From positions 9,816,727 to 9,880,726 of the forward strand of contig JARUPZ010000012.1 of NCBI GenBank assembly GCA_031213475.1: a stretch of DNA of 64,000 nt, given 5' to 3'. Made by a program: the position numbers and the translations under genes. Below, piece after piece: positions 6,031-63,160 of this stretch (positions within the stretch are counted from its first letter, which is position 1; each line of letters opens with the position of its first letter). The notes beneath the pieces are model-generated. The model was not told where the DNA came from. It did no database searches and saw nothing but the letters and a program-made list of their open reading frames with translations. The DNA comes from Nereocystis luetkeana (lineage: Eukaryota; Sar; Phaeophyceae; Laminariales; Laminariaceae).

Positions 6031-7734
6031 AAAAAGAGATAAATGGGTACATAACTAACTGTGTGAAGAACACGGGTTAACTCGTCTCTCGCGGCCGGGT
6101 TGATAGTTGCGAGGCAGACAGACAGACGCGGCCAACCCATTGGCCGACTTCGCGCCCTGTTGGAGGTACAGTCAGGTGTCGTATGCCTTCGGTCAACTTT
6201 TTTTTTACCTGTAACGCATCCGGCCAGTTCGTTCGTGAGTCTCCGCGTTGGGGTGATAGGCGGTTTGTGTTGTCTCACCACAGGTGCTGCAGGCAGGCTT
6301 CTTCCTCCCGCAGCAGTATGCAGTTGAGTTGTCTTTGCTCGAGGCAAGGTCTTCGCGCCGAAACTCATCATCATCGCCTCGGGCACCCAACAAAGCGGTG
6401 TAGCGAGCGTCGCTCCTCGGTTGGTTCAATACTAAAAATTGCGGCGGGTTTTCGATATGTAACGGCAAAGTACGATCTCGACCAAAAACACTGCGGGACA
6501 AACACAAGCTTTGGCAGGGCACCTTCTCGTGTCAAGCGTGCATGATTGTGTGTGTGTACAGCAGTGTGCTGCGGCAGAAGGAGATAGGGAGGATCATTTG
6601 GAAATTGGGTGTTGTTGCAGAGCTATAGAGGAAGGTACTGCTTTGTTGTCTGCAATAGTCCACAGCGAGGCGTATGTAGTGCACAAAAGACGACAGAGAA
6701 GATTGCGGGAACCCCTCGGTAGCTCGAAATACTCTTATTTCGACGGACTTCGGGTGAAGCGGCCGTAGATGATGAGGACCGAACGTTCAAATCACAGGAG
6801 GGCAGGAACACATGCGTGTTTCGAAGATGACGTCGCAAAGGACAAGATCTTGGAACGTTGCACGAAGGCAGCTTGCAAAAGGTGATTTCGAAGTATGTGA
6901 GAAATACATTTTTTTTACGTCGTTGCACGAAGGGAGCTCACACAAGTTGATTTTGAAGTACGTGAGATATTCATTTTTTAAGCAAGTTGGTATTAGAGGC
7001 AATACTATGATGAAGTTATAAATTGGGCATCACGCTGTCTATACCTGGTATATGATTAATAGATATGTTTTCCTGGATTATCGCCGAAACACAACGAACG
7101 GTTACCCCCGGTTTTCGGCTCATTCCGGCTTGAAAAACTACAATCGACTAGAAAACCTTCCGACAGACACCAAAAATATTTTCCCTGGCTTTTGTGGCTC
7201 CGACAAAAACAGATTCTAGGCCTTTTCGGCTCGGACCCGTTCTACGATAGAGGTAGCACATTTTCGCTATTATGTTTCTGACAGACGGGGTTCCATGAGC
7301 CGAAAACGTCGGAATGCCAATCTTGTTTTCGAAGCATAGCGTTTTCTAAACTCGGGCCATGGGATTATTCACCGCGATGCAATTTGATTTTTGCTGAAGT
7401 CAGTTTTCGGGTGAGGTATCGAGCTCCTTAAGTGAGGAGCCTCAGAAAATTTAAGGCGAACACCTATTGTAGCACGCCTCCTCGGACATAGAAAATCAGC
7501 TCGAAACCTTGAAAACCGGCTTGTACGTGAGGAAATTTGCCTTTTTTGTTGTAGTCGGAGCAGGCTCGACCGGCTCGCAGAATAACGTTGCCCAAATCGG
7601 CCAGCAGGCGCCAGAAATCCGTAATGCAGCTGGTCTAATATTACCCCTTTTTTGGAATATTGCCCTTTCTTTAGAAATAGTTTTCCTTTGAATTTAAATA
7701 TCTACCAGTAGATAGAACTACTTACTTAGATATA
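6031..7734. other. Intergenic, no supported gene
   Basis: Unique-looking sequence. A short duplication is visible at about 6,850-6,960, where TTGCACGAAG-G-AGCT and the following AAGTTGATTTTGAAGTA-type phrase occur twice about 65 bp apart. Open frames here (for example 6100-6327 and 6511-6768) lack recognisable motifs. Confidence 0.5.
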
Positions 7735-13575: not shown

Positions 13576-15139
13576 GATATTATGTAATACTTTTTGGATG
13601 CATTTTTTTTCCACGTAGTTGATCATGCACCAACCCACAAATGGAAAGCAAGCCCTTTTTTATTGTTCGAGCCATACGACCGATAGAAATATCCGGAACA
13701 CACACAACAGCGACCGTAACTTGTGTGAAAAAAAAAAAAGCTCGCTTTTCGTTTCTCTGCTTATTATGTGCAAATACGAGGTTAAACGTGCAGATCGAAA
13801 CTCGCAAAATTGAGGGGGGCATCGCGGAAAAAACAACATGTATGTATTGTATTTACTTCCGTGACGTACGCATGGAGGTTGAGTATAGGCAATATGTCTT
13901 GATGGGTGGCGAAGTGGGCAATGAAACTTATGTCGGTCTTCTTGTAGCGTCCTCAGCTAGTCTTGATCGATTTTCACGTGAATCGGGATCGACGATTTAA
14001 ATGCAAATTTCGTGTTGGAAAGTTGGTATTCTTGAATTTTCTGTTAAATTCAAGATCGGCACACTTTGTATCCCTAGACAGATTTGCCTATTATGCCGAT
14101 ACTCGTTGGTACTCACGTACGTGTGTGTTGTTTGCTTAGAACTTGAAGAAGATCACCTTTATTCCTTTCGTGCTCGCGGAGACTGAGAGCCAAGCTCGTG
14201 CCTCGCTGAGAAACCCCCTCGATTTCCATCTAAGATACGCCTTCCAAGTACTACTACTGCCAATACGATTCCAATTCCTGAACTCAGGTAATTACTGGGC
14301 TTTCAGCCTCATTCAAAGCAACACCATAACACTAGCCCACTCTGAAGAGCCGTATAATAAGCAGATTTGGGGGGAACTAATGGAAACCCCGCTCCACGAG
14401 CTAGAGCATGATGAGTCGAAGATGCGGTTCCTCAAAACCCACTCCCACACGTCTACGAGCTAGCTCGCAATGATATCTACCAATCGGTGCGCTGTTTCAT
14501 GTTCGGGTCTCACCTTGTTCGCCCCCCCCGTCTCTTCCAGGGATAGCCACCACCGTGATCGCGTCGTGTCCTGTGGTGGCGTCCAGTTTTTTTGTGTGTT
14601 TTCCGAAAAGGGTTGTTCCGGTGTCACCTGTCTGCTCGTTCTGTGCATGTATATAAATACACATCACTCTAGGTAAAAAGAAAAAAGGGATCGGGTAGAT
14701 CAACACTATGGCTGGCGTTATTCCTTGTGTTTCACCACAACAAACAGGACGGAGATGAGCATCCAAGGCAGCTCTTGTTTGTGCATTTATTTTTCGGGTG
14801 CCATTTGCTAGCAGTGACGAGAAGATCGTGAATACGTACAAGCAACTAGCCCTATCCAGCATCGACATTCGTGTGTCTCTTACCAGCTTATATCTCTGCA
14901 CTACTACCTTCACAGGACCTATCTATGGAGAGTAAGACACTACTACTAGTAGGAACATACCTGGTACAGTATAGTTACAAACACGCTCCTACCGCTCCAG
15001 CTGCGGTGGTACTGGTATGAAACGTCGGCACTGTCGTTTACCAGGTATACCGCCAATGTGACACCGAGTGCCTTGTTGCACAAATTTTGCCACCTGACAC
15101 TGTATAGGGCCTATTCCAACGACAACTTCCACATATATA
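13576..15139. other. Intergenic; one weak coding-like patch
   Basis: Mostly unique sequence. The plus-strand frame at about 14,165-14,463 is open for about 100 codons, and an adjacent frame at 14,420-14,515 reads VPQNPLPHVYELARNDIYQS. I could not assign either and do not call a gene. Small tandem AT and TACTAC patches occur near 14,935 and 15,135. Confidence 0.4.
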
Positions 15140-35106: not shown

Positions 35107-35576
35107 GCCGTGAAAGGATGAAATGCACACCCCATCGATTGCGATGCGCCTGGGGTCGGAAGAACCTGAAATATAGGGAGGACAAATATCTCGGTGATTT
35201 CGTCTTTTTTAGCGTTCAAGAGCTCGGGGAGGGCGCTCAGCTAGAGAGGCCTGTTTGGATCAGCCTCGGGCCTGGTGATACTCTTAAAACTAAAGTCCGG
35301 GGGAGATTCACCGCTTGATCCATTTTTGCCATTTTTTGAAGCACCCTCCAGCAACGACATACATTTATTTGCTCGCGACAGAGAGCATTTTAGCGAACGT
35401 ATTTTGTTTAAAGGCTACGGTGTTGGTTGTGACCGGCTAGGAACCGGTGGGTGGCTGCGCGGTCGCGTCGCGCGTTGGATGGTGAACAAGTCCGTCGACT
35501 GTCTTGTCATGTTGCTGCACGATGTTTCTCAAACATGAGGAATAAGGGGTTTCAACCAAAAAAAGGCCCATCCATG

Positions 35577-35855
35577 TGTTATGGTACTGCTTTGAATGAG
35601 GCTGAAACCCTGGTAATTACTTGGGTTCAGGTATTAGAATCGTGTCTGTAGTACTTGGGAGGCGTATTATAGATGGGAAAAAAGTTTTTTCCCAGCTAGG
35701 CACGCACTATGCTCTCAGTCTCCCCGTGCACGAAAGGAATACATATGTTCTTCTACATCTAAGGATACAACACGCGTGAGCACCAACGAGTACCGGTTTA
35801 ATAATTACATCTGTCAGGATGCAAAGTGTCACGACCTTGATCTTAAGAAGTGACG
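35577..35855 (+). repeat. 5' LTR
   Basis: Starts TGTTATGGTAC and ends TGACG; same length as the 3' LTR. Shared blocks in order: TTCAGGTATT-G-ATCGT, TGTAGTACTTGGGAGG, CTCAGTCTCCCCG, GCACGAAAGGAA, CACGTGAG/CGCGTGAG, TACCGG-TTAATA, CAAAGT-TC-CGACCTTG. No clear primer-binding site follows. Confidence 0.8.
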
Positions 35856-38819: not shown

Positions 38820-39745
38820 ATATTATCATGATATGCAACGATGACAGCCATGAAGGCTATATTCCTATCAATTGGACCCCGGAGTACCCTCTCCGGGAAT
38901 CCTTTTGCGCGTGCCATCACACGCGACAAGCCCACGACCACCCCCCTAACTACCTTGATCGATGATTATTTTGGGCAGGTGTCGCGCGCCCTCATAGGCG
39001 GACCCACGGGGCCAGAGGCGTTCACCCTCCTCCTGAGGTTGCTGAGCAGCCCCTTCAACCACACCGACACGGGGGCCAGCTACACCAGGTTGTATAATTC
39101 TGGCATGTCTAACGGGGGACTCCCTTTTGCGATTTTAGCCGGGCATTTCGAGGGGTGGTGTCGGCAGCGACGAGGACTGAGCATGTTTTGTTTTGGGGGC
39201 GGTTCGGATAGCAGTTAACGAGCAGTACCCCAGTTGGATGCCCAGTCGGGTTTGGCTTGGCTACGGTATGGAGGTCGTTCGGCATTCGGACGCCATGTGG
39301 TTGGCGTCTGAGACTCTCGCGAAAAATAAGACACCTGCCATCAACGTCGAAAAATATGTTTCTTTGTCTGCTGCTTCAAACGGTGCGCAGTCATCCGTCC
39401 CGTCGGGCCCCCGGCTCGCCAGGTATGGTTGCGGCCAGGGTCGGGTTGCCTTTCCAGTCGCCTTCATGGTGGATGGGATCGCGCAATACTCTGCTTGTGA
39501 TGAAAGTCAACAAACCCACCCTTGACTGCCTCGATCCGTGACTTGACACTTCGTCCGACTGATGGCTCCCAGACGTACACCACTACGCTGAAGTTCACGT
39601 TGTTTGCTTTTCCATCCAGACCGATGACCCTCCCCTTCCGAGCGGTCTACTTTCATCGTCCGCTCGTGCCGCCGTACTCAGCAAAGACGGATACCACTGC
39701 CTGAACCGCCACGAAGACACACACTCCTTCAGCCAGTGTAGACAT
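38820..39745 (+). pseudogene. Gag core and zinc knuckle
   Basis: The capsid-like part (FARAITRDKPTTTPLTTLID ... TGPEAFTLLLRLLSS, 38,900-39,060; then VEVVR-AVNEQY ... DAMWLASETLAKNKTPAIN, 39,195-39,350) aligns block by block with 51.7-52.18 kb. The nucleic-acid-binding knuckle at 39,698-39,739 reads CLNRHEDTHSFSQC, where the copy at 52.5 kb has the canonical C-x2-C-x4-H-x4-C; the second Cys is Arg here. Gag would package element RNA. At least three frame changes make it non-functional. Confidence 0.75.
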
Positions 39746-40389
39746 CCCTTTCAAAACCTTAGCGGCTTTCGGAACCCCGACCTCGGAACGCTCGGCGACG
39801 ACGACGAGGCGTTCCGCCGTTGGCAAGAACGCATGATCGGACACCGCCACGAGAACCAATCCTAACGACCGCAAGGACAGCGCAACCAGAATAATTAAAG
39901 CATCGTTTCGGCCACTCGCGATCGCAGCACCAGGGCCAGCAGAACCTACAAGGTGACGGCTGCAGCACACACACGCGGAACGAGGGCGCAAGCAGTCTAA
40001 CTCTGGCCATCACGGTGGTGATTCAGCCACCTCTGCCTCTTTCACCCCAGCTCCCGCCTCGAAGATTCGTTACGGTGCTTCGCATACCTCGGGCGGAAAC
40101 CCGAACGAACGTCAGCCAGGCATCGTCCGCGCCGATAACTGGCATGTCGACGGCGGCTCGCCCTCTCCTCCCCATCCACCGCCAGCAATGCAGGGGGAAA
40201 AAACATTGATTTCACAAGATGCTCGTGTCCCAGGTCCGCCCAGCGTTCAGCGCCGACCTGTCCCGATCTCGCACCGCGCTTTGCTCTGTACGTCGAACTG
40301 GCGCAGCGAGCCAGCCTGACTTGCTTCACCGGAGAACCCCCGGGCGTCTCCTCCGGCGTTGGGAGCCCGTGCCTCAAATGCCGCTCCCC

Positions 40390-41019: not shown

Positions 41020-41200
41020 ACGGGAAATAGTGGTACAGAGCGAGTATACATGGAACCGGCCTCGCCTGGTGCATCAGGGGCTCAGTGTTCTCAGAGAAGC
41101 ACAGTCCCCCCACACACACCACACGTGTGGTCACCGTCGACTCGACACCGTCGGTCTTTGACCCTACCCTCGAGTATTCAACGGAGTGGATGGTACTGTT

Positions 41201-41690
41201 CTGGAAGCCCACCCCTATTTGTCGCAGTTGTCCCCCACGTCTTTAGTCGCTGACGATATGTCATATTCCTGCGGGGAACAGTATATGATGGCTGAAACGG
41301 CTTTCAGGACCACGGCGCAGCGGAGCGGATTATGGCCTCGCCAGACCCACGCGAGTACTAACGCCTTGGTCGAGGCGTGCATAACTTCGACTGCGGTAGC
41401 TAGGGTCGCGTTCGCGGGAAAATGTTGTCCTTGCTGGTACGTTAGCACAATGCACACATAACCCGCCCATGACGCAAAACCTATTGAGCACTGGTACCAA
41501 ACCATTTGTCTGAAGCCAACCCTTTTGACCCCGTGTGGGACGTCGGTCTTCGGGCAGACGACCCCGAGGCCCAAGACCCCTCCCGGTGGCGTGGGAAACA
41601 TTTGCTCGGGAAACCTCTGTCCGCTGTTCTCGATACCCTTCGCGCAATTGAGGACGGGTTGGCACACCCCGCCTCCTCTCATCGAATTTG
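41201..41690 (+). pseudogene. NADAR (YbiA-like) domain between Gag and protease
   Basis: Motifs in family order: SPTSLVADDMSYSCGEQYMM followed by AE (41,225-41,297); then a frameshift to DHGAAERIMASPDPREY, RLGRGVHNFD (41,305-41,395); MTQNLLSTGTKPF (41,470-41,509); SEANPFDPVWDVGLRADDPE (41,511-41,570), where the family has E-A-x-P-x-D-x-VWGIGL; then PSRWRGKHLLGKPLSAV. NADAR enzymes cleave N-glycosidic bonds, and some reverse guanine ADP-ribosylation. Several frameshifts and stops (for example at 41,360 and 41,400) show decay. The same NADAR-then-protease order occurs on the minus strand at 1.1-2.4 kb, so the domain belongs to this retroelement lineage and is not a chance insertion. Confidence 0.85.
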
Positions 41691-41879
41691 ACTCCCACCA
41701 AGCCCAACACAATTTATGATATTTCGCCAGTGCTGCCCTGCCCTTTTGTCGTGGCCCACGCATGCCCAGGTCCTCCCTTGGAGTTTCCGGCCTGCTATTC
41801 TGACGCGCCTTCCTGATCACAGTCTCGATGGTTTGGCTGTCGCATCTAGTATCGACCCCTCCCTCGCGCTGTCAGAACA

Positions 41880-42600
41880 CGGCCCTGCCTCGTCCGGGGC
41901 ACCATCACCCTCGATGACGCCTCCTTTTGCCATCAAAATCGCGATTCACGGCGGACCTGCCGTTGTCGCGCGTTTCGGTTGCGTGGCGCTCCTGGAAATT
42001 GGCTCCACACAGACTTGCATTCGACGAGATGTTTTGGATCGCATGTTGTCGGTCGGAGCGGCATCCATCGTGTGCGAGAAAGAAATGCACCCCTCGTTCT
42101 TGTGGAGGCTTTGGCGGATCGACCCCTCTGAAACCTTCGACGAGTGCACACCTGGGCGTCCACTGTTTTCGAGAGGATGAGCCTACGTGCTCCCTCGCGG
42201 TTCGGACCTGCGTTGTTCCCCCCCAGTGATGCAGCATGCAATACTACTGGGACGTGACAGCTGGATGCGTTTGAAGATTGATGACCTTTTTGCCCCTTTG
42301 GGGAGATTCGACGCTCGTCTTTCTGCTTCCGCCGCCACCGTCGATTGCCGTTATGGCTTGGGTTTTGTTTTACCCACCGCCAACCCCGCGTTCGCTTCGG
42401 TTTTGGTTGTACCCTCAAGGGGGGACGAAGGCTCTGCAGAAGCCCCCGCTGTAGAGACGAGTGTCGCCCAGTACGCTCCTCTCCCGACAAGCACTTTACA
42501 GGGAGACGATTCCGCCGTGATCACTGGCTCGGCCGCGTCTTTTCTTTCGACTCCTGACAACCCTGCACTTCGAAATATCTTGCCGCCTTCAGCCCGCATC
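41880..42600 (+). pseudogene. Aspartic protease region
   Basis: TITLDDASF, then after a frameshift FGCVALLEIGSTQTCIRRDV (active-site region; the family's D-T/S-G appears as E-I-G), and AILLGRDSWMRLK (42,240-42,275), followed by a Pro/Ala/Ser-rich linker to the stop at 42,619-42,621. A retroviral-type protease would process the polyprotein. The altered catalytic motif and shifts argue against activity. Confidence 0.6.
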
Positions 42601-43005: not shown

Positions 43006-44170
43006 TTGGGGGTTCAAGTGCTGGCTAACAAAGGCCACTTGCACACCACCGACGCGGACATCATCTTATTCGTCCGACAGCCGTTCCCCCCCGTTGCGTC
43101 GGGTACGCAACGCTCAGTGGGCCCTACGGTCCCTACGGTCGTTTTAATGAACGACGCGCCTATTCGTATTTTAGCTCATCCGCCCCTGGGTCATGCAGGC
43201 TCTTCATTCGACAGCTTCCTACCACCTGGAAACCGCGCGCACCCTGCGTATGCTCGAACGATTATATTGGTGGATCGGTGTGAGCATGGTTACACAACTG
43301 CTTAAAGTGCTAAGCACTGAAAACGTCGCGGCAGACGGTCAGGTGGCCCACCATCCCGTTGCCCTTGCCGGAAAGGCCCGGCATCGCCGTCAGCGTCGAG
43401 CATTCCGACCCTCTCCCGGTGACGCCTCCAATTAGTACCTATGTCTTGCTTTTCTACGATCGTTCCAGCCGCCAAGGCGACATGTTCGCCTTCACAGCGG
43501 CTGAGTTCACCGGTGAGGGAACGTTTAACGCTCTCCTCAACCGGTATATTCCCCTCTGGGGATGCCCGCGCAGCGTCTGCTCTGACAACGGCCTCTGAAA
43601 TTCTTCTCCAAGCTTTCGCACGACGTTTATTAACTTCTCGGGGCTCGGAAATTGTCACCAGCTCCTTCCACCCGAACGACAACGGTGGGGTGGAAAGTGT
43701 AAACCACACGATTGCCCAGATGCCGGCAATGATCGTCAAAGAGCTCCGAAACAACTGGGGTTAACAGCTCCTTCATGTCGAATTCACGTACAACAACTCC
43801 GTCAGCGCCGCCAAGGATTTGGCTACCAACGAAATCCACATGGGTCGGCTGCCACGCCTGCCCCTCACGATTTTCCAGCGTGCTGGAGTTCGCCGACCAC
43901 CACAGTTTGGCCGGCGACCACCTAGCTTGCTGCGATTTGGCGATGGATCGCCAGAAGCGAGCGTACGGTAAATTTCGCCAATACCACACCCTCACTGATG
44001 CTCGCGTGAATCGCCGCCGCTCCGCCCTTTCCGGCGCACTGCGCCCAGTCCCCAAGTTCGTGGTTGACGGCTGGGCGTCGGTGTGCGGTACGGCGGACAC
44101 CATCCGCCAGGCTGCGAAGCCTGACACGGACGCTAAGGTCCTCAAGGTCAAGCTCTCACCCAACTGAACA
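43006..44170 (+). pseudogene. Integrase (zinc-binding and catalytic domains)
   Basis: Zinc-binding part: MQALHSTASYHLETARTLRM, LYWWIG, then NCLKC (43,289-43,303) followed by an in-frame TAA. Catalytic core: SVEHSDPLPVTPP, where the first catalytic Asp appears as Glu; VLLFYDRSSRQGDMFAFTA; RYIPLWGCPRSVCSDNGL (second Asp; then stop); HPNDNGGVESVNHTIAQM (third acid, Glu); VEFAYNNSVSAA-type region near 43,770; and a C-terminal ADTPDGSPFG / YKVLAAGP segment to 44,240. This is the Ty3/gypsy integrase layout. At least four frame changes and several stops are present. Confidence 0.9.
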
Positions 44171-44421: not shown

Positions 44422-45018
44422 ATGATAAGGTTTCGACCCCTCTTCAGCGACTTAGTGGAAAAGATTACCGGACACCAATCGGTTAGAAGTCGAGGTGGCA
44501 TCCTCGCGGAAATGTACGAGACGCACTGGGCAGGACTATCCCGACCATCATGGGAACGGGAAATGGACCTCCAGCTTTCTCTTCACGAAATGTTGCGCCA
44601 CTGGGCAGGCACCCAAAACCAGCACCGCCAAGCCAACCTCCTGTTACAGTACCGCTGGATGAGAATCGCGCGACACAAGGATAAGTTTCTCGCAGTAACA
44701 ATGAGCGGTTTCTGGCACCCGGGTATAGCTGCGTATCGCACGCCGATTGGCTTCGCCAACACTACAACACAGTGCTTCCCAACGGGGCCCACGTTTGGTA
44801 CAAGGGCGACAACGGTCTGGGGTGGCTCGGAGAAATCAGCGCGACTACGCCAACGAATGGGGAATATATGGCTCGATTCTTGGACGGCTCGGGACCGTTC
44901 AGGATTCCTCTTTCTCCGGCGGGCTACTCGCCTTCGACGAGAGCTGTACACGGTCCTTAGTCTCCAAATACAGTTGGCTAGCGCGTTGGCACGGGGGCTC
45001 CAGCGTTACGTATATTAA
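44422..45018 (+). pseudogene. Chromodomain-like C-terminal tail of integrase
   Basis: One long frame (198 codons) holds VEKITGHQSVRSRGGI ... MYETHWAGLSRPSWEREMDL, which has the features of a chromodomain (I-x-x-H, W-G/x-x-x-x-x-WE). An overlapping frame gives HVWYKGDNGLGWLGEI ... GEYMARFLDGSGPFRI (44,790-44,920), a Tudor/chromo-like beta segment. Such tails direct integration by binding histone marks. The switch of frame near 44,770 breaks it. Confidence 0.6.
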
Positions 45019-45719
45019 TCTCGAGATTCCACCGTGGAAAGCTGATTTTCGCATCTCGGCTGCACTCGATATTTTTTGTCGTCGTTTCGTTGGACTTAGG
45101 GGGATGGTCTCATCGTTTTGGATATTTCCCGAGTTTTCGGGTCGTGTTTTTTCGGCTCGGCATGTTTCTGATTTCTGTTTGGCTTGGGCCGGGTTGGGGA
45201 TGGTTGTTGCGTATTTTGTCCTGCCTACCCCCCTCTCTCAGTGTCGGGGCTGGTCTGGGTAATCGGGCCACTAATTGGTCGCTCAAAACTGGTTTCTGGG
45301 TGTGTGGGCTGTTTAAGTGTTTCTTGGCGTATTCAGTGTTGTTTTGATTCTCGAAACACTGTTCCCCCCCCGCTCGGGAACTGGGGGTGCTCTACACAAC
45401 ATTGACGACACCTGCTGGGGAACAGGACCGCCTCGTTTTTTGTGTCAACACTTCGCTTTTCTGTAGACACGTCCTCGCCCCACCCACGTTGCGGGTGGCA
45501 TGGCGATGGCATCCGTTGACGATTTATTTCTGGCCCTTTAGCCTAGGCCTTCCTTTCCTCATATTTGTTTGGCGTACCTCGGCGGCTTCGTTACCTTGTT
45601 CAGAGGCGTGGGAGTGGGTTTCGAGATGCAGCAACTTCGACTTGTGTTTTAGCTCGTGGAATCGGGGTTTTAACGAATTTCGCATAAATATTCGTTTACG
45701 GCTCATCAGAGTGAGCCGA
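45019..45719 (+). other. 3' untranslated part of the retroelement
   Basis: T-rich sequence with no domain separates the integrase tail from the 3' LTR. The bases just before the LTR (AGAGTGAGCCGA) are mostly purine, a weak candidate polypurine tract. Confidence 0.5.
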
Positions 45720-45998
45720 TGTTATGGTACGGTCTTGAATGGGGTTAAACGTGCGGAAATTACCTTGGATCAGGTATTGGGATCGTATTTGTAGTACTTG
45801 GGAGGAGTATCTTGATGGAAAAGCGGGGGTGGTTGTCCCTGCGGGGCACGAGCTTTGATCTCAGTCTCCCCGCGCACGAAAGGAAGAAAACTACTTTTTA
45901 CTATCTCTAAGCAAACAACACACGTGAGTACTAACAGGTACCGGCTTAATAGGCAGACCTGCCTAGGGATACAAAGTATCCCGACCTTGGTATTGACG
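45720..45998 (+). repeat. 3' LTR
   Basis: Starts TGTTATGGTACGG and ends TGACG, 279 bp like the 5' copy, followed by CATG, which also precedes the 5' LTR. The AATAA-like signals are not obvious. Confidence 0.8.
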
Positions 45999-51388: not shown

Positions 51389-53165
51389 TCGTTTCAACCT
51401 TCAACTCAGGCAATAGGACACTTCCGGCCCTTTAAACAATCTCCACTTCGACCGTGACGACCCACGTACTACCGCTGAAACATTTATAGCCACGTCGACG
51501 TTCGCAATATTGCTGCGGGGGTCGCAGAAACTCATCTGGGACACACCAGAGGGGATCGAGCGACTTAGCATGAGCGGCTGATATCTCCTCTTCTTGTCGA
51601 CAGCGATGGGAGTAGAGTACTTCTCATGATGTGCAACGTTGGCAGGCACGAAGCGCTTCGTTCTACCGATTGGATCCCCGGTTGGGAGTCCCACTCAAGA
51701 AGTCCTTTGCGCGCGCTATCGCACCTGACAAGCCCACGACCGCCCCCCTCACTACCTTGATGGATGATTCGTTTGGGCAGGTTTCGCACGCCCTCGCAGC
51801 AGGGTCGACGGGACCGGAAGCGTTCACGCTCCTCCTGGAGCTGCTGAGCAACCACTTCGACGCACCGACCGCACCGACACGGGGGCTAGCTACACCAAGT
51901 TGCATAATTATGGCGTACCTAGCGGGACCCCCTTTTGCGATTTTAGTCGTGCTTTTCGAGGGGTGGTGTCGGCAGCGACTGGGACTGAGCGTGTTTTGGC
52001 TCCGGGGGTAGAGGTTGTTTTGGAGGTTGTTCGGATGGCAGTGAACGAGCAGTTCCTCAGCTTGATGCCCACGCTGTACCCGGGAGTTTTGACTATGGTG
52101 TCGAGGCCGTTTGGTACTTTGGACGCCATGTGGCTGACGTTTGAGACACTGGCGAATAATAAGACACCTGCCATCAACGGCGAAAAAGAATTCCTTTGCC
52201 TGCTTCTTCGACGAGTGTGCGGTCATCCGCCCCATCGGGGCCCCAGGCCGCCAGTAATGGTCGCGGCCAGGGCCGGACGCTTCCCCAGTCACCTGTTTGG
52301 CAGACGGGGTCGCGCAAAACTCCGCTTGTGATGAAAGTCCATAAATCCATCCCGGACTGCCTCGACCCGTGGCTTGACACCGTCTCCAACCGCTGGCCCC
52401 TAGAAGAACACCACTATGCTGAAGTTCACGCTGTTTGCATGCCCATCCAGACTGAGGACCCTCCCGTCTGGAGCGGTCTACTTTCATCGTCCACCCGCGC
52501 GGCCACCCTCAGCGAAGACAGAGGCCGTTGTTTGAACTGCCACGAAGACTCACACGTATTCAGACAGTGTAGGCACCCCTTTCAAAACCTCAGCGGTATT
52601 CTATACCCCGGCCTCGGAACGCTCGGCGACGACGGAGTGGCGTTCCGTCGTTGGCAAGAACGCATGATCCGACACCACCATAACTCACGGCCAAACAAGA
52701 ACAACCACGAGACAAACAGGCGTCGTTCCGGCCATTTGCGTGGGCAGCATCACGGCCACGGCCACAGACTAGGTGACGGCTACAACACACACGCGAAACG
52801 AGGGCACCAACAGTCTAACTCCGGCCACCACGTTGGGGGTTCGACCACCCCTGCTTCTTCCACCCCGGCTCCCGCGTCGGGGGTTCACTACGGTGCCTCG
52901 CATATTTCGGACGGTAACCCCAACGGACGCCATCCAGGCACCTTCTCCGCCGGAAATTGACAGGTCGACGACGGTTCGGCTCCTCCCGCCCGCCCGCCCG
53001 CCGCCAGCATTGCCGGGAGAAGTTACATTGATTTCACAAGATTCACGCGTCCCAGGCTCGCTCAGCACTCAGCGTCGCCCTGCGCCGCTCCCCCCCCGCG
53101 CGTTGCTCCGTACTTCGAACCGACGCAGCGACTCAGCTCCACCGGTTCTAGCGCTAAACCAACTA
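51389..53165 (+). pseudogene. Second NADAR-lineage Gag copy, truncated after the knuckle
   Basis: It matches 38.85-40.3 kb throughout: RAIAPDKPTTAPLTTLMDDS, STGPEAFTLLLELLSNHF (51,700-51,860), AVNEQF ... DAMWLTFETLANNKTPAING (52,035-52,180), and a well-preserved 254-codon frame (52196-52960) with the zinc knuckle CLNCHEDSHVFRQC at 52,529-52,570 (C-x2-C-x4-H-x4-C intact) and a His/Asn/Gly-rich tail. Similarity to the full element ends near 53,160, just before where its antisense frame and NADAR would lie. Frameshifts near 51,900 and 52,190. No LTR, protease or integrase follows. Confidence 0.8.
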
Positions 53166-56019: not shown

Positions 56020-56340
56020 ACAATCTGGGAGAAGGGATCTTTAGGTTGGTAGGCTGTTCGGATGCTTTGGTTCCTGTTGGGATCAAGGTACGGGCGAAGA
56101 CCCAACCCAACCTCTGACTCTAACCCTAACCCTAACCCTAACTCTAACCCTAACCCTAACTCTAACCCTGACCCCAAACCGCAGCCGAAACGGGCCTAAA
56201 CTCGCCATAAACGCGGCTACGACGAGTTTGCATCGAACCAGGAAATTTCTCAGATGCGGACGACGATTCCGAAATGCAGACCACGCTACACATTTTTCAA
56301 GTAAAAAACATCCCTAAAGATCCCTTCTCCCAGACTGCTA
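56020..56340. repeat. Inverted repeat enclosing telomeric repeats
   Basis: CTGGGAGAAGGGATCTTTAG (56,028-56,047) is answered by its perfect reverse complement at about 56,313-56,334, and looser complementarity continues outward (GCATT, TAAA). The 0.27-kb interior contains the CCCTAA array. Confidence 0.75.
56117..56170 (-). repeat. Interstitial telomeric repeat (TTAGGG on minus strand)
   Basis: About eight units of CCCTAA, some as CTCTAA, with CCCTGA at the right edge. TTAGGG is the telomere unit reported for brown algae. Internal position and unit decay indicate an interstitial array, not a chromosome end. Confidence 0.9.
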
Positions 56341-58939: not shown

Positions 58940-59455
58940 CACCCTTTCCTACGCGAAGGCCCTCAAGATGGCACGTTGCGAGAGCATCGAAACGACCATT
59001 CGTAAACATCGGCTCTTCTTTACTTGCGGGGGGCGTGGCACGGCAAAGCAAGGAGCGATTACCCAGTCGGGTAATGTTCGGGACGATAGCTGGTGGGGAA
59101 AACCCGAGACCAGGCGGACAGTGTAAGACTTGGCATAGATGCTTAGTCGAAGACCTTGGGGAGTGTTCCGAGCCACCGAAGGGTCAACGGAAGTTGCCCC
59201 TTGGTGTTTGGAGTTGAGACCGTGTTGTGGTCCACTGCAGCCAAAAAGGCGGGGAAGTGGTACCAGGGGATCCTTGAAGCAGGCGAACGGTTCATGGTGA
59301 GGTGGCACGATGCTGAAGCTGAGATGAGTAGGCAGCGCCGCGCATCCGCCGTGGATGGTGTCCAAGGGAATGGGGGGGGAGGGGGCGACAGGAGAAGTGG
59401 CAGAAAAGCCGACCAACGGAATGCGGAGAGGGGGGGAGAACAGGAGGAGTAGAAG
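58940..59455 (+). pseudogene. Non-LTR retrotransposon ORF2 C-terminal tail, copy 1
   Basis: SYAKALKMARCESIETTIRK, HRLFF, then after shifts RQSKERLPSRVMFGTIAGGE, RPGGQCKTWHRCLVEDL and VFGVETVLWSTAAKKAGKWY. The R-LP-R-V-x-FG ... W-x-x-C-x-x-x-DL pattern is the usual C-terminal region after the reverse transcriptase of LINE-type elements. Only this tail is present, as expected for a 5'-truncated insertion. Three frames are needed to read it. A G-run and Arg/Gly-rich end follow. Confidence 0.65.
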
Positions 59456-60400
59456 GGAAACTGCGGTACACGAAAGACTTAGGAAGGAGGTGGCAGACAG
59501 GGTAGCAAGGCACCAGGCCGACTAGGAAGTAGAACATGACCATACTACTAGTGCCACCAACTGGTGCAGCTGGTTCGAACGTGGTCTTCCCTTGTCTTCC
59601 CTTTTTGTTCTGTTTTTTTATTTCTCGCGCTGATTCCCCGAGATTCTCATTTTATTTCTCTTCCTTTTTTTACTGATAAGCCGTATTGAAGGAGTCGTGT
59701 GGCGTGGTTGGATGACGAACCTGCTCTGCTCGTTTCGTATTGTCTGACGCCAAGGGGCTGGGCATAGTTGACAAACGCAGGGCGGAGACGGCAGTCTGGG
59801 TAGCAAGGTACCAGGCGGATTAGTAGGGAGAACCTGGCTATACTACTCGTACCACAAACAGTAACTGCTGCCGCCACACTTGGAGGGTGCTTTGGGCTTT
59901 GGTCTGCCTGTTATTTTCCCTTTGTTATTTTTCCCTTGGTTCTTTGTCTTACTCTGTTTACAAGCAGTGGTGTTTCACTTATGTTTTCTTTTTTTTTCCA
60001 GCTCGTTCTTTTTCAAGTGTTGACCACCTCACTTGTCTGCAGGGGGGGGGGACGACAGATTGTTTCTTTTAGTTTTCTTTCATTCTTGTTTTTTTCTCTT
60101 TCGATTTGTCTTATTTCTTTTTGTTTTCTCTTTGATTGTTTCTTTTTGTTTCTCTATTTCATAGAATGTGTACGACTTGTCTGTCGTATCTAGTACCAGG
60201 TATGATGACATGGCATTTCATTGCCCATGAACGGTTTAATGCGAAGAACACACACTGGTACTACTGTGCTTACTGCATACATACGTGGCAACGCAGTATC
60301 TCTGTGGCGTAGCTATGTGACCACAGAACTTGTATACCTCGTATCTTCTAGGATTGAAGAATCGGCACGGGCACTGGTTGTGCTGGATGTCGACAGGGTT
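59456..60400 (+). repeat. 3' region of the non-LTR element, copy 1
   Basis: Shared with 62,215-63,125: CACTAGTGCCACC-AACTGGTGCAGC, GAACGTGGTCTTCC, CTGATAAGCCGTATT, GGAGTCGTGTGGCGTGG, CAAACGCAGGGCGGAGACGG, GGAGGGTGCTTTGGGC, T-rich runs, CATACATACGTGGCAACG, and CACTGGTTGTGCTGGATGTCG. Long T/C homopolymers and G runs (60,038-60,050) vary between copies. Confidence 0.8.
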
Positions 60401-60789: not shown

Positions 60790-61550
60790 CACACCTGTGT
60801 TGCACTGCCCACAAAAAAAACACAAAAAAAAATCCCGACAACAGAGCCAATGGAAGCACGTCTTCCGCCTTTTTTTGTTTCTCGAGGACTTTCGTTTTTT
60901 TAACTAGCTCCGAACGTTTCCATCGAGCCAAAATTTGGCAGATCGGATATATATGAGCTCCTTGGTGCACTCCCATGAGTTCTCCAAAGCGACGGCACTT
61001 TCCTGTCCTCCTTCGGCGGGGCGGACCTTGTCGCTGAATGTTGTAAATAAATGTGGTTCGAGGGGCTTGAATTTTCGGTTTATTGTACTAGTAACTGTAC
61101 TGTAGCAAAGTATTTTTTTTCTGCTGTAGAACGAGAAGGAGGAACGTACTCGACCTTCTGGGTTCCTCCAGCTCTTGTTCTACCACAGAAAAAATACCTG
61201 GCTACACTACAGTCAGAGTACGGTGACCGTCCTCGTTCTACAGCAAAAATACTTGGCTGCAGTACAAGAAACCGAAAATTCAAGCACCTGGAACCACATT
61301 TACAACCTTCAGCGACCAGGTCCGCCCCGAAGGAGGACACGAAAAGTGCTGGCACACTCACTCACGGGAGTGCACCAAGGAACTCATATCCGATCTGCCA
61401 AATTTTGGCTCGATGAAAACGTTCGGAGCTAGAGCTGAAAAACGAAAATTACTCAAGAAAAAAAAGGCGGCAGACGTACTTCCATTTATTGGCTTTGTTG
61501 TCGGGACTTTTGGCAATATCAGCTTTGTTTGTGGGCAGTGCAACACAGGT
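60790..61550. repeat. Large imperfect palindrome (about 0.76 kb)
   Basis: The left arm (60,790-61,145) is complementary to the right arm (61,162-61,550) along its length: ACACCTGTGTTGCACTGCCC / GGGCAGTGCAACACAGGTG; CATCGAGCCAAAATTTGGCA and TTGGCTCGATG; TTCGG-GGGGCGGACCT-GTCGCTGAA on both; and TTGAATTTTCGGTTT. The centre is GGAGGAAC-16 bases-GTTCCTCC. The right arm has about 60 extra bases from a local duplication (CTACAG-AAAAATAC-TGGCT twice). Confidence 0.85.
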
Positions 61551-61579
61551 GCAGAGGAGAAAAAATACCGAACTGATAC

Positions 61580-62214
61580 ACGTCCTACTGTGTACTGCTG
61601 CAGTATCAATAATAGTAGTGTACAACAGGCTCACCACCGAGTCCTGTTGCGAGTCATTGGTTTCCAGCGCCGACTTCGTACTGACCATGCCCTCCTCTCA
61701 TCATACGCGAAGGCCCCTCAGATGACACGTTGCGAGAGCATCGAAATGACCATTCGTAAACATCGGCTCTTCTTCGCGGGGGGCGTGGCACGGCAAAGCA
61801 AGGAGCGAATACCCAGTCGGGTAGTGTTCGGGACGATAGCTGGTGGGGAGAAAGAACCCGAGACCAGGCGGACAGTGTCAGACTTGGCATAGATGCATAG
61901 TCGAAGACCTTAGGGAGTTCCGAGCCACCGAAGGGTCAACGGAAGTTGCCCCCTTGGTGTTTGGAGTTGAGACCGCGTTGTGGTCCACTGCAGCCAAAAA
62001 GGCGGGGGAAGTGGTACCGGGGGATCCTTGAAGCAGGCGAACGGTTCATGGTGAGGTGGCACGATGCTGAAGCTGAGATGAGTAGGCAGCGCCGTGCATC
62101 CGCAGTGGATGGTGACCAAGAGAACGGGGGGGGGGGGGGGGCAACAGGAGAAGTGGCAGAAAACCCGACCAACGGAATGAGGAGAGGGGGGGGGACAGGA
62201 GGAGTAGAAGGGAA
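61580..62214 (+). pseudogene. Non-LTR retrotransposon ORF2 C-terminal tail, copy 2
   Basis: This copy starts further upstream than copy 1: VQQAHHRVLLRVIGFQRRLR, then SSYAKAPQMTRCESIEMTIR, LFFAGGVARQSKERIPSRVV, FGTIAGGE, and after a shift EDLREFRATEGSTEVAPLVF and RFMVRWHDAEAEMSRQRRAS. The reading frame is intact from about 61,413 to the stop at 61,890-61,892, longer than in copy 1. It directly follows the palindrome, whose right arm reads into the same frame. Confidence 0.7.
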
Positions 62215-63160
62215 ACTGCGGTAGACGAAAGCAGGAAGGAGATGGCAGACAGGGTAGCAAGGCACCAGGCCGACTAGGAAGTAGTATATGACCATACTAC
62301 TAGTGCCACCAACTGGTGCAGCTGGTTCGAACGTGGTCTTCCCTTGTCTTCCCTTTTGCTTTGTTTTTTTATTTCTCGCGCTGTTTCCCCGTGATTCTTA
62401 TTTTATTCATTTCCCTTCCTTTTTTTATTGATAAGCCGTATTATTGAAGGAGTCGTGTGGCGTGGTAGGATGACGAACCTGCTCTGCTCGTTTCGCCTTG
62501 TCTGACGCCAAGGGCTGGGCATAGTTGACAAACGCAGGGCGGAGACGGCAGTCTGGGTAGCAAGGTACCAGGCGGATTAGTAGGGAGAACCTGGCTATAC
62601 TACTCGTACCACAAACTGCTGCCGCCACACCTGGAGGGTGCTTTGGGCTTTGGCCTGCCTGTTATTTTTCCCTTTGTTATTTTTTCCTCGGTTCTTTGTC
62701 TTACTCTGTTTACAAGCAACGGTGTTTTTGTTATTTTTCAGTTTATTTTCTTTTCTTTCCGGCTCATTATTTTTCAACTGTTGCCCTCCTCGCCTGCGGG
62801 GGGGGGGCACGACAGATTGTTTATTCTATAAATAGTTTTGTCTTTCATGTTCTTCTTTTTTATTTCGATTCGTCTTCCTTATTTTTTGTTTTCTCTTTGA
62901 TTGTTTCCTTTTTTTGTTTCTCTATTTCATAGAATGGGTATGTCATGCCTGTTGTACCTACTATGATGGCATGGCATTGCATTGCCCACCACTGCACTGC
63001 TGTGTGCTAGCTGCATACATACGTGGCAACGTGGTATATCTGTGGCGTAGCTTTGTGACCACAGAACTTGTATATCTTCTAGGATTACAGAATCGGCACG
63101 GACACTGGTTGTGCTGGATGTCGACGGGTAGAAAGAACGGTTTAATGTGAAGAACACATG
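62215..63160 (+). repeat. 3' region of the non-LTR element, copy 2
   Basis: Direct copy of 59,456-60,400 plus the terminal GGTAGAAAGAACGGTTTAATG. Differences are mainly homopolymer lengths and small indels. Confidence 0.8.

Follow-up and report, generated by a model that had tools for sequence, protein, structure and literature searches.

A Ty3/gypsy-like LTR retroelement of approximately 10.4 kb, which is old and dead, carries a NADAR (YbiA-type) domain between a Gag zinc knuckle and a protease in the Nereocystis luetkeana DNA analyzed here (64,000 nucleotides in full, hereafter the window). From the domain itself, its placement between zinc knuckle and protease, the relatives that share it, the predicted YbiA-type fold and the ligand residues of those relatives, and its affinity to bacterial NADARs, we infer the activity, target and purpose of the element NADAR. 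On this basis we lean towards the reading that a domain of bacterial origin was carried in the pol region, would have been packaged, and would have cleaved guanine-ADP-ribose or other targets to the detriment of host defence or in answer to damage.

Structure of the Focal Element

The initial annotation had placed the NADAR domain within matched LTRs. A pair of LTRs was indeed found on the plus strand, but its members are only 72% identical and the 5′ member is truncated. Only the 3′ part of the 5′ LTR is left at 35574-35848, with approximate ends and a start that is no longer recognisable, while the 3′ LTR covers at least 45602-45998, its end being approximate. Alignment of 35574-35848 with 45717-45998 gave the 72% identity over 275 compared positions (K2P 0.363), and blastn joined 35577-35839 to 45720-45989 at 73% over 271 columns. 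The family is represented by a third LTR at 14044-14454 on the minus strand, which showed 74-75% identity to both others by blastn, the 3′ LTR matching 14051-14454 of it; the upstream parts common to the 3′ LTR and this third copy are missing from the 5′ LTR.

The Gag region of the element (38823-40315, plus strand) has a second partial copy in the window at 51621-53137, with 75.9% identity over 1541 columns in blastn. A zinc knuckle remnant, CLNRHEDTHSFSQC, was seen in the translation of 39698-39739 with one Cys changed to Arg, and the second gag copy holds a complete CX2CX4HX4C at 52529-52570, a pattern that we take to be the Gag zinc knuckle. The Pfam family zf-CCHC_5 scored only 12.7 bits on the second copy (cutoff 27), and no Gag family exceeded its Pfam cutoff, including in ten ORFs mostly from the Gag region. 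Downstream of the NADAR domain, a remnant of a retroviral-type aspartic protease with an LLGRDSWMR block occupies 41899-42276 on the plus strand (start approximate). It was recognized by tblastn, in which the alignment of the related protein P0002 extends to 42114 and the focal copy reads LLEIGSTQT where P0002 has LLDTGSPQT, and by a second element in the window that matches focal 42095-42276; Pfam gave no protease match in the focal pieces. The order zinc knuckle, NADAR (41210-41643) and protease, as claimed in the initial annotation, is supported for the focal copy, and its location within a Ty3/gypsy-like element is supported by the NADAR profile PF08719, the relatives, tblastn and the second window element.

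The remaining part of the element is heavily eroded. An integrase zinc-binding domain remnant (H2C2) is found on the plus strand at 43181-43279, where PF17921 scored 21.4 bits (E 2.7e-4), below the cutoff of 25.5. Further integrase remnants downstream of the protease were seen by eye in the translations, namely SDNG, presumably a motif of the integrase core, together with HPNDNGGVESVN and SSFHPNDNGGVESVN; these core-like motifs are spread over two frames at 43443-43720 (plus strand), a region with no Pfam match to them. After the integrase, a C-terminal block running from VWYKGDNGLGWLG to YMARFLDG was read by eye at 44787-44960 on the plus strand; no Pfam family exceeded its cutoff there, and we would guess that it is possibly a chromatin-reader-like domain. 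Reverse transcriptase and RNaseH seem to be gone from the focal copy, since none of the six plus-strand ORFs of at least 80 aa between 42181 and 43305 matched a Pfam family, and the gap of about 0.9 kb between the protease block and the H2C2 remnant is presumably too short for RT-RNaseH.

Elsewhere in the window, nine further ORFs gave nothing above Pfam cutoffs, the Rfam search returned no match and the tRNA search found none. A direct repeat of about 1.5 kb (58947-60397 and 61701-63128) is 87% identical between its copies, part of 61227-61892 appears by eye to be what we take as LINE-like, and a short interstitial run of telomere-like CCCTAA repeats lies at 56119-56170.

The Focal NADAR Domain and Its Decay

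The NADAR domain of the focal element (41210-41643, plus strand) is interrupted by frame changes and stops. A search of its translation, begun at 41101 with every stop written as X, against the NADAR family profile was nevertheless significant, as PF08719 matched residues 68-181 (41302-41643) at 46 bits (E 8.9e-12), above the gathering score of 35.1 that defines membership of the superfamily. The N-terminal part with GEQYMMAE lies in a separate frame (41162-41461) and scored 14 bits, below the cutoff. According to tblastn with the relatives, the copy runs through three frames, from 41216 to 41302, from 41302 onward and from 41409 onward, and by eye the reading then returns to the second of these. 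All five blocks by which the domain had been recognized (GEQYMMAE, DPREY-RLGRGV, LLSTGTKPF, SEANPFDPVW, and WRGKHLLG) are present in the order given. With 22 related proteins as tblastn queries, the best alignment inside 41101-41720 was that of P0008 at 116 bits, while 200 mononucleotide shuffles of the same stretch reached at most 24.6 bits with the same queries; together with the 46 bits of PF08719, this led us to reject a chance motif match. The alignment of P0002 scored 211 bits, being longer and including the protease.

The decay reaches the active site, which the initial annotation had overlooked. By eye, the Lys at position 50 is changed to Thr, and positions 75 and 89 are two stops; the main frame holds five stops between 41302 and 41643. 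Six of the nine contact positions are retained (43, 79, 93, 125, 130, and 133). The focal NADAR copy is thus dead and catalytically broken.

A Second NADAR Element and Relatives Among Predicted Proteins

Scanning the window with the relatives revealed a second, divergent NADAR at 1947-2363 on the minus strand (PF08719 and tblastn), also missed in the initial annotation. It lies in one frame with three in-frame stops (2351, 2273, and 2051), scores 86.6 bits with PF08719 (E 2.9e-24) and is about 37% identical to the relative P0001. Downstream of it, at 1320-1731 on the minus strand, a protease remnant with an LLLGRDSWMR block is recognisable from its match to 42095-42276 and from tblastn with P0002, which aligned at 1616-1431 with 56% identity over 62 aa. 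By eye, this element retains eight of the nine contact residues, position 133 being a stop. Since the second NADAR has diverged so far, two clearly different elements with a NADAR-protease arrangement are present within the 64 kb window.

Relatives were sought among 5.8 billion predicted proteins, and 22 matching proteins were obtained among 146 candidates, the best with 58% identity over 94% of the query part; their contigs measure 0.8 to 11.3 kb. In three of the 22 (P0002, P0013, and P0020) the reading frame of the NADAR runs on to a DTG protease motif, the protease of P0002 being scored weakly by Pfam (11.1 bits, cutoff 21.2). Of nine relatives scanned, eight exceeded the PF08719 gathering score, with up to 141.3 bits, and P0020, a C-terminal piece, remained below it (25.3 bits). 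All three relatives scanned with TIGR02464, the family of riboflavin-intermediate N-glycosidases, passed the NCBIfam cutoff. The presence of the domain in 22 relatives and in the second window element shows that the NADAR is shared by the related elements found, none of which was seen as an intact full-length copy, rather than confined to this locus, and we therefore reject a unique insertion into one copy. Some searches of other collections were negative: blastn of 41101-41720 found nothing in plasmids, scans of viral contigs with P0001 and A2 gave 10 and 60 pattern matches, none confirmed as a relative, and a first scan of genome contigs with A2 gave 103 matches, none confirmed.

Two side observations concern the relatives. 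All three scanned (P0004, P0016, and P0018) match the PADLOC candidate-defence model PDC-M42C with 97-105 bits. The N-terminal 32 residues of P0016 align with window positions 7384-7479 (72%), outside any NADAR, which suggests, as judged from this match, a shared repeat upstream of the P0016 copy.

Fold and ADP-Ribose-Contacting Residues

By sequence, the relatives match the solved NADAR 8bau and YbiA (2b3w). An AlphaFold model of P0016, built from a 15-row alignment (mean pLDDT 67.8, with blocks 41-130 above 80), matched only these two structures in the PDB at E < 0.001, 8bau with E 1.3e-5 and a modest TM of 0.55-0.59, and 2b3w with E 9e-4 and an equally modest TM of 0.55-0.56. A YbiA-like fold is accordingly predicted for the relatives.

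The residues that hold ADP-ribose in the Phytophthora nicotianae NADAR are named in the accessible part of PMC11543638, and our mapping of them is checked by the 8bau row, which bears the named letter at all 11 positions with a shift of 2. Counted over the 14 of 22 relatives that were aligned, with gaps set aside, the contact residues were kept as follows: E43 in 2/3, K50 in 8/11, K75 in 12/14, R79 in 13/14, W89 in 13/14, R93 in 10/14, E125 in 11/13, D130 in 12/14 and W133 in 10/14. The majority letter is the same as in the solved enzyme at nine of the 11 mapped positions, position 43 being represented by three rows only; the differing positions are 84, with Phe, and 86, with Cys, and Phe at 84 is shared by 78 of the 88 rows from bacteria and phages. 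Glu at the E125 position, the mark of the YbiA subfamily, thus occurs in 11 of the 13 relatives and was also read by eye in the focal and second elements. We therefore rejected a DarT-type antitoxin, which would have Asp at this position. Contact positions matched the consensus of the relatives hardly more often than other NADAR positions (91/111, 82%, against 1085/1352, 80%), and no extra constraint on them is thus visible; such figures might be expected if most relatives are decayed copies.

Origin of the Element NADAR

Our largest tree comprised 100 rows, namely 88 loci from bacteria, phages and plasmids, 11 relatives (P0019, P0005, and P0007 having been dropped beforehand) and one oomycete fragment. 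The bacterial rows were the best 80 of 505 stretches confirmed in a second scan of genome contigs, supplemented with 8 phage and plasmid loci, and since these 80 were taken by likeness to the query, the sample is skewed towards close kin. In this tree the eleven element NADARs formed one clade (100/100), sister to six bacterial loci of which five are labelled Myxococcota (99/87). Two smaller trees combined 33 hand-picked loci of the 88 with 9 relatives; the Myxococcota grouping was recovered with 92/88 in the version of 42 rows and was without resolution in the version of 44 rows, to which both window copies had been added. Here the second window copy, whose branch was very long, did not join the other element NADARs, and a single clade of element NADARs including it was not rejected (p-AU 0.337). 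Thus, the element NADARs appear to fall among bacterial ones, and two of the three trees place them close to those of Myxococcota. The comparison of retroelement and cellular NADARs proposed in the initial annotation accordingly speaks for a bacterial affinity, with the cellular eukaryotes represented in the trees by the P. nicotianae fragment only. An oomycete cellular NADAR as closest kin was rejected, as P0018 scored 46.8 bits against 8bau and P0004 127 bits in phages and 128 bits in plasmids, a rough comparison in view of the different queries. Four bacterial loci among these kin (L009, L011, L014, and L058) were inspected by eye in ORF lists covering their short flanks, and we noticed no darT-like gene. 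A single gain from a bacterium, followed by inheritance within the element lineage, is the probable history of the NADAR.

Possible Role of the NADAR Domain

Live elements presumably made a Gag-Pol polyprotein with the NADAR ahead of the protease, and since the domain is sited there, it would have been packed together with reverse transcriptase and integrase. It could then have cut the N-glycosidic bond that links ADP-ribose to guanine in the RNA or cDNA of the element, proteins or small ADP-ribose signals being alternative targets, and removal of the ADP-ribose would undo host ADP-ribosylation, whether imposed as defence or as damage. The initial annotation had proposed that such an enzyme cleans ADP-ribose from element nucleic acids or blunts a host defence. 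This role is plausible by analogy, considering the conservation of the contact residues and the activity of another NADAR, as the P. nicotianae enzyme hydrolyses guanine-ADPr according to the available part of PMC11543638.

A first alternative is that the enzyme was active on small molecules, such as ADP-ribose derivatives, cyclic ADP-ribose or NAD-derived RNA ends, thereby blunting host NAD signalling or repairing RNA intermediates. Small ADPr targets are proposed for phage NADARs, with RNA repair roles possible, in the part of PMC9503650 at hand, processing of RNA intermediates is suggested in the corresponding part of PMC12477816, and TIGR02464 itself describes an N-glycosidase of riboflavin intermediates. 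On the other hand, the same portion of PMC9503650 argues that NADARs in the polymerase polyproteins of RNA viruses act mainly on macromolecules, which, with the guanine-ADPr activity just cited (PMC11543638, as far as accessible), makes an exclusive action on small molecules rather improbable in our view. The changed residues in many copies, and contact residues hardly better kept than the rest, would suit a NADAR fold retained to bind RNA or the polyprotein without catalysis; yet the majority residue is that of the solved enzyme at nine of 11 positions (position 43 from three rows), and even the divergent second element keeps eight of nine contact residues by eye, so that we regard loss of catalysis throughout the lineage as very doubtful. 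That the domain is a host or bacterial gene inserted by chance into one copy, or an assembly join, and no cargo of a family at all, would agree with the decay of the focal copy but is hardly credible in the face of 22 relatives, three of them in frame with the protease, a second divergent element in the same order within the window, and a lineage described in the accessible text of PMC12477816.

We retain the reading of a packaged ADP-ribose-cleaving domain. Its more specific form, in which an ADP-ribose eraser resembling those of myxobacteria was taken from a bacterium once, stayed catalytically competent while at least two subfamilies diverged deeply and reversed host ADP-ribosylation of RNA, cDNA or the particle, is put forward tentatively, as a possibility that we would not yet call probable. 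To our knowledge, LTR elements seldom carry enzymes beyond their standard set. If true, the use of an eraser by this lineage would imply an ADP-ribose-based host defence against retroelements, and conservation of such a domain in front of the protease would suggest that ADP-ribosylation of nucleic acids or particles is a barrier to retrotransposition in the hosts concerned.

Comparison With Known Systems

A NADAR-carrying LTR element is of a kind already in print, and reports may exist from before Dinatale et al. (2025). The initial annotation was not aware of any wide description of such cargo; this was superseded in September 2025, when that study (PMC12477816), in the part available, reported that one Gypsy lineage of Ectocarpus (Gypsy-12_Ec32) has a NADAR domain at the Pol N-terminus. 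As far as that text goes, Gypsy-12_Ec32 resembles the window element in being a Ty3/gypsy LTR element with a YbiA-type NADAR near the Pol N-terminus and in having bacterial sequences as the nearest matches of its NADAR; the likeness is drawn on architecture alone, no RT having been found here. In contrast to that element, the focal copy is old and broken, no C-terminal chromodomain was recognised in it by Pfam, and a much diverged second NADAR element is present in the same window. The accessible part of the same paper also describes NADAR-like domains, called divergent, that are encoded by the Tx1 LINEs of the Pacific oyster; these likewise reside within a retrotransposon, but one that is a LINE and in its ORF1, and we compare them by description.

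The YbiA/TIGR02464 family shares with our element the fold, a profile match above the cutoff in the three relatives scanned and the Glu at position 125, whereas the domain is part of a retroelement polyprotein here and a stand-alone bacterial protein there. NADARs of positive-strand RNA viruses, as presented in the part of PMC9503650 at hand, are similar in that NADAR and polymerase are joined in one polyprotein, a likeness of arrangement to viruses rather than retroelements. The NADAR antitoxins associated with DarT1 (BC4488 type; PMC11543638, within its accessible text) belong to the same superfamily and by inference would share its chemistry, but they have Asp at the class-defining position and a toxin gene as partner, where the element NADARs have Glu. 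Compared with the published Gypsy lineage, the second diverged element together with the active-site and tree evidence is what the present analysis adds, and it strengthens that case.
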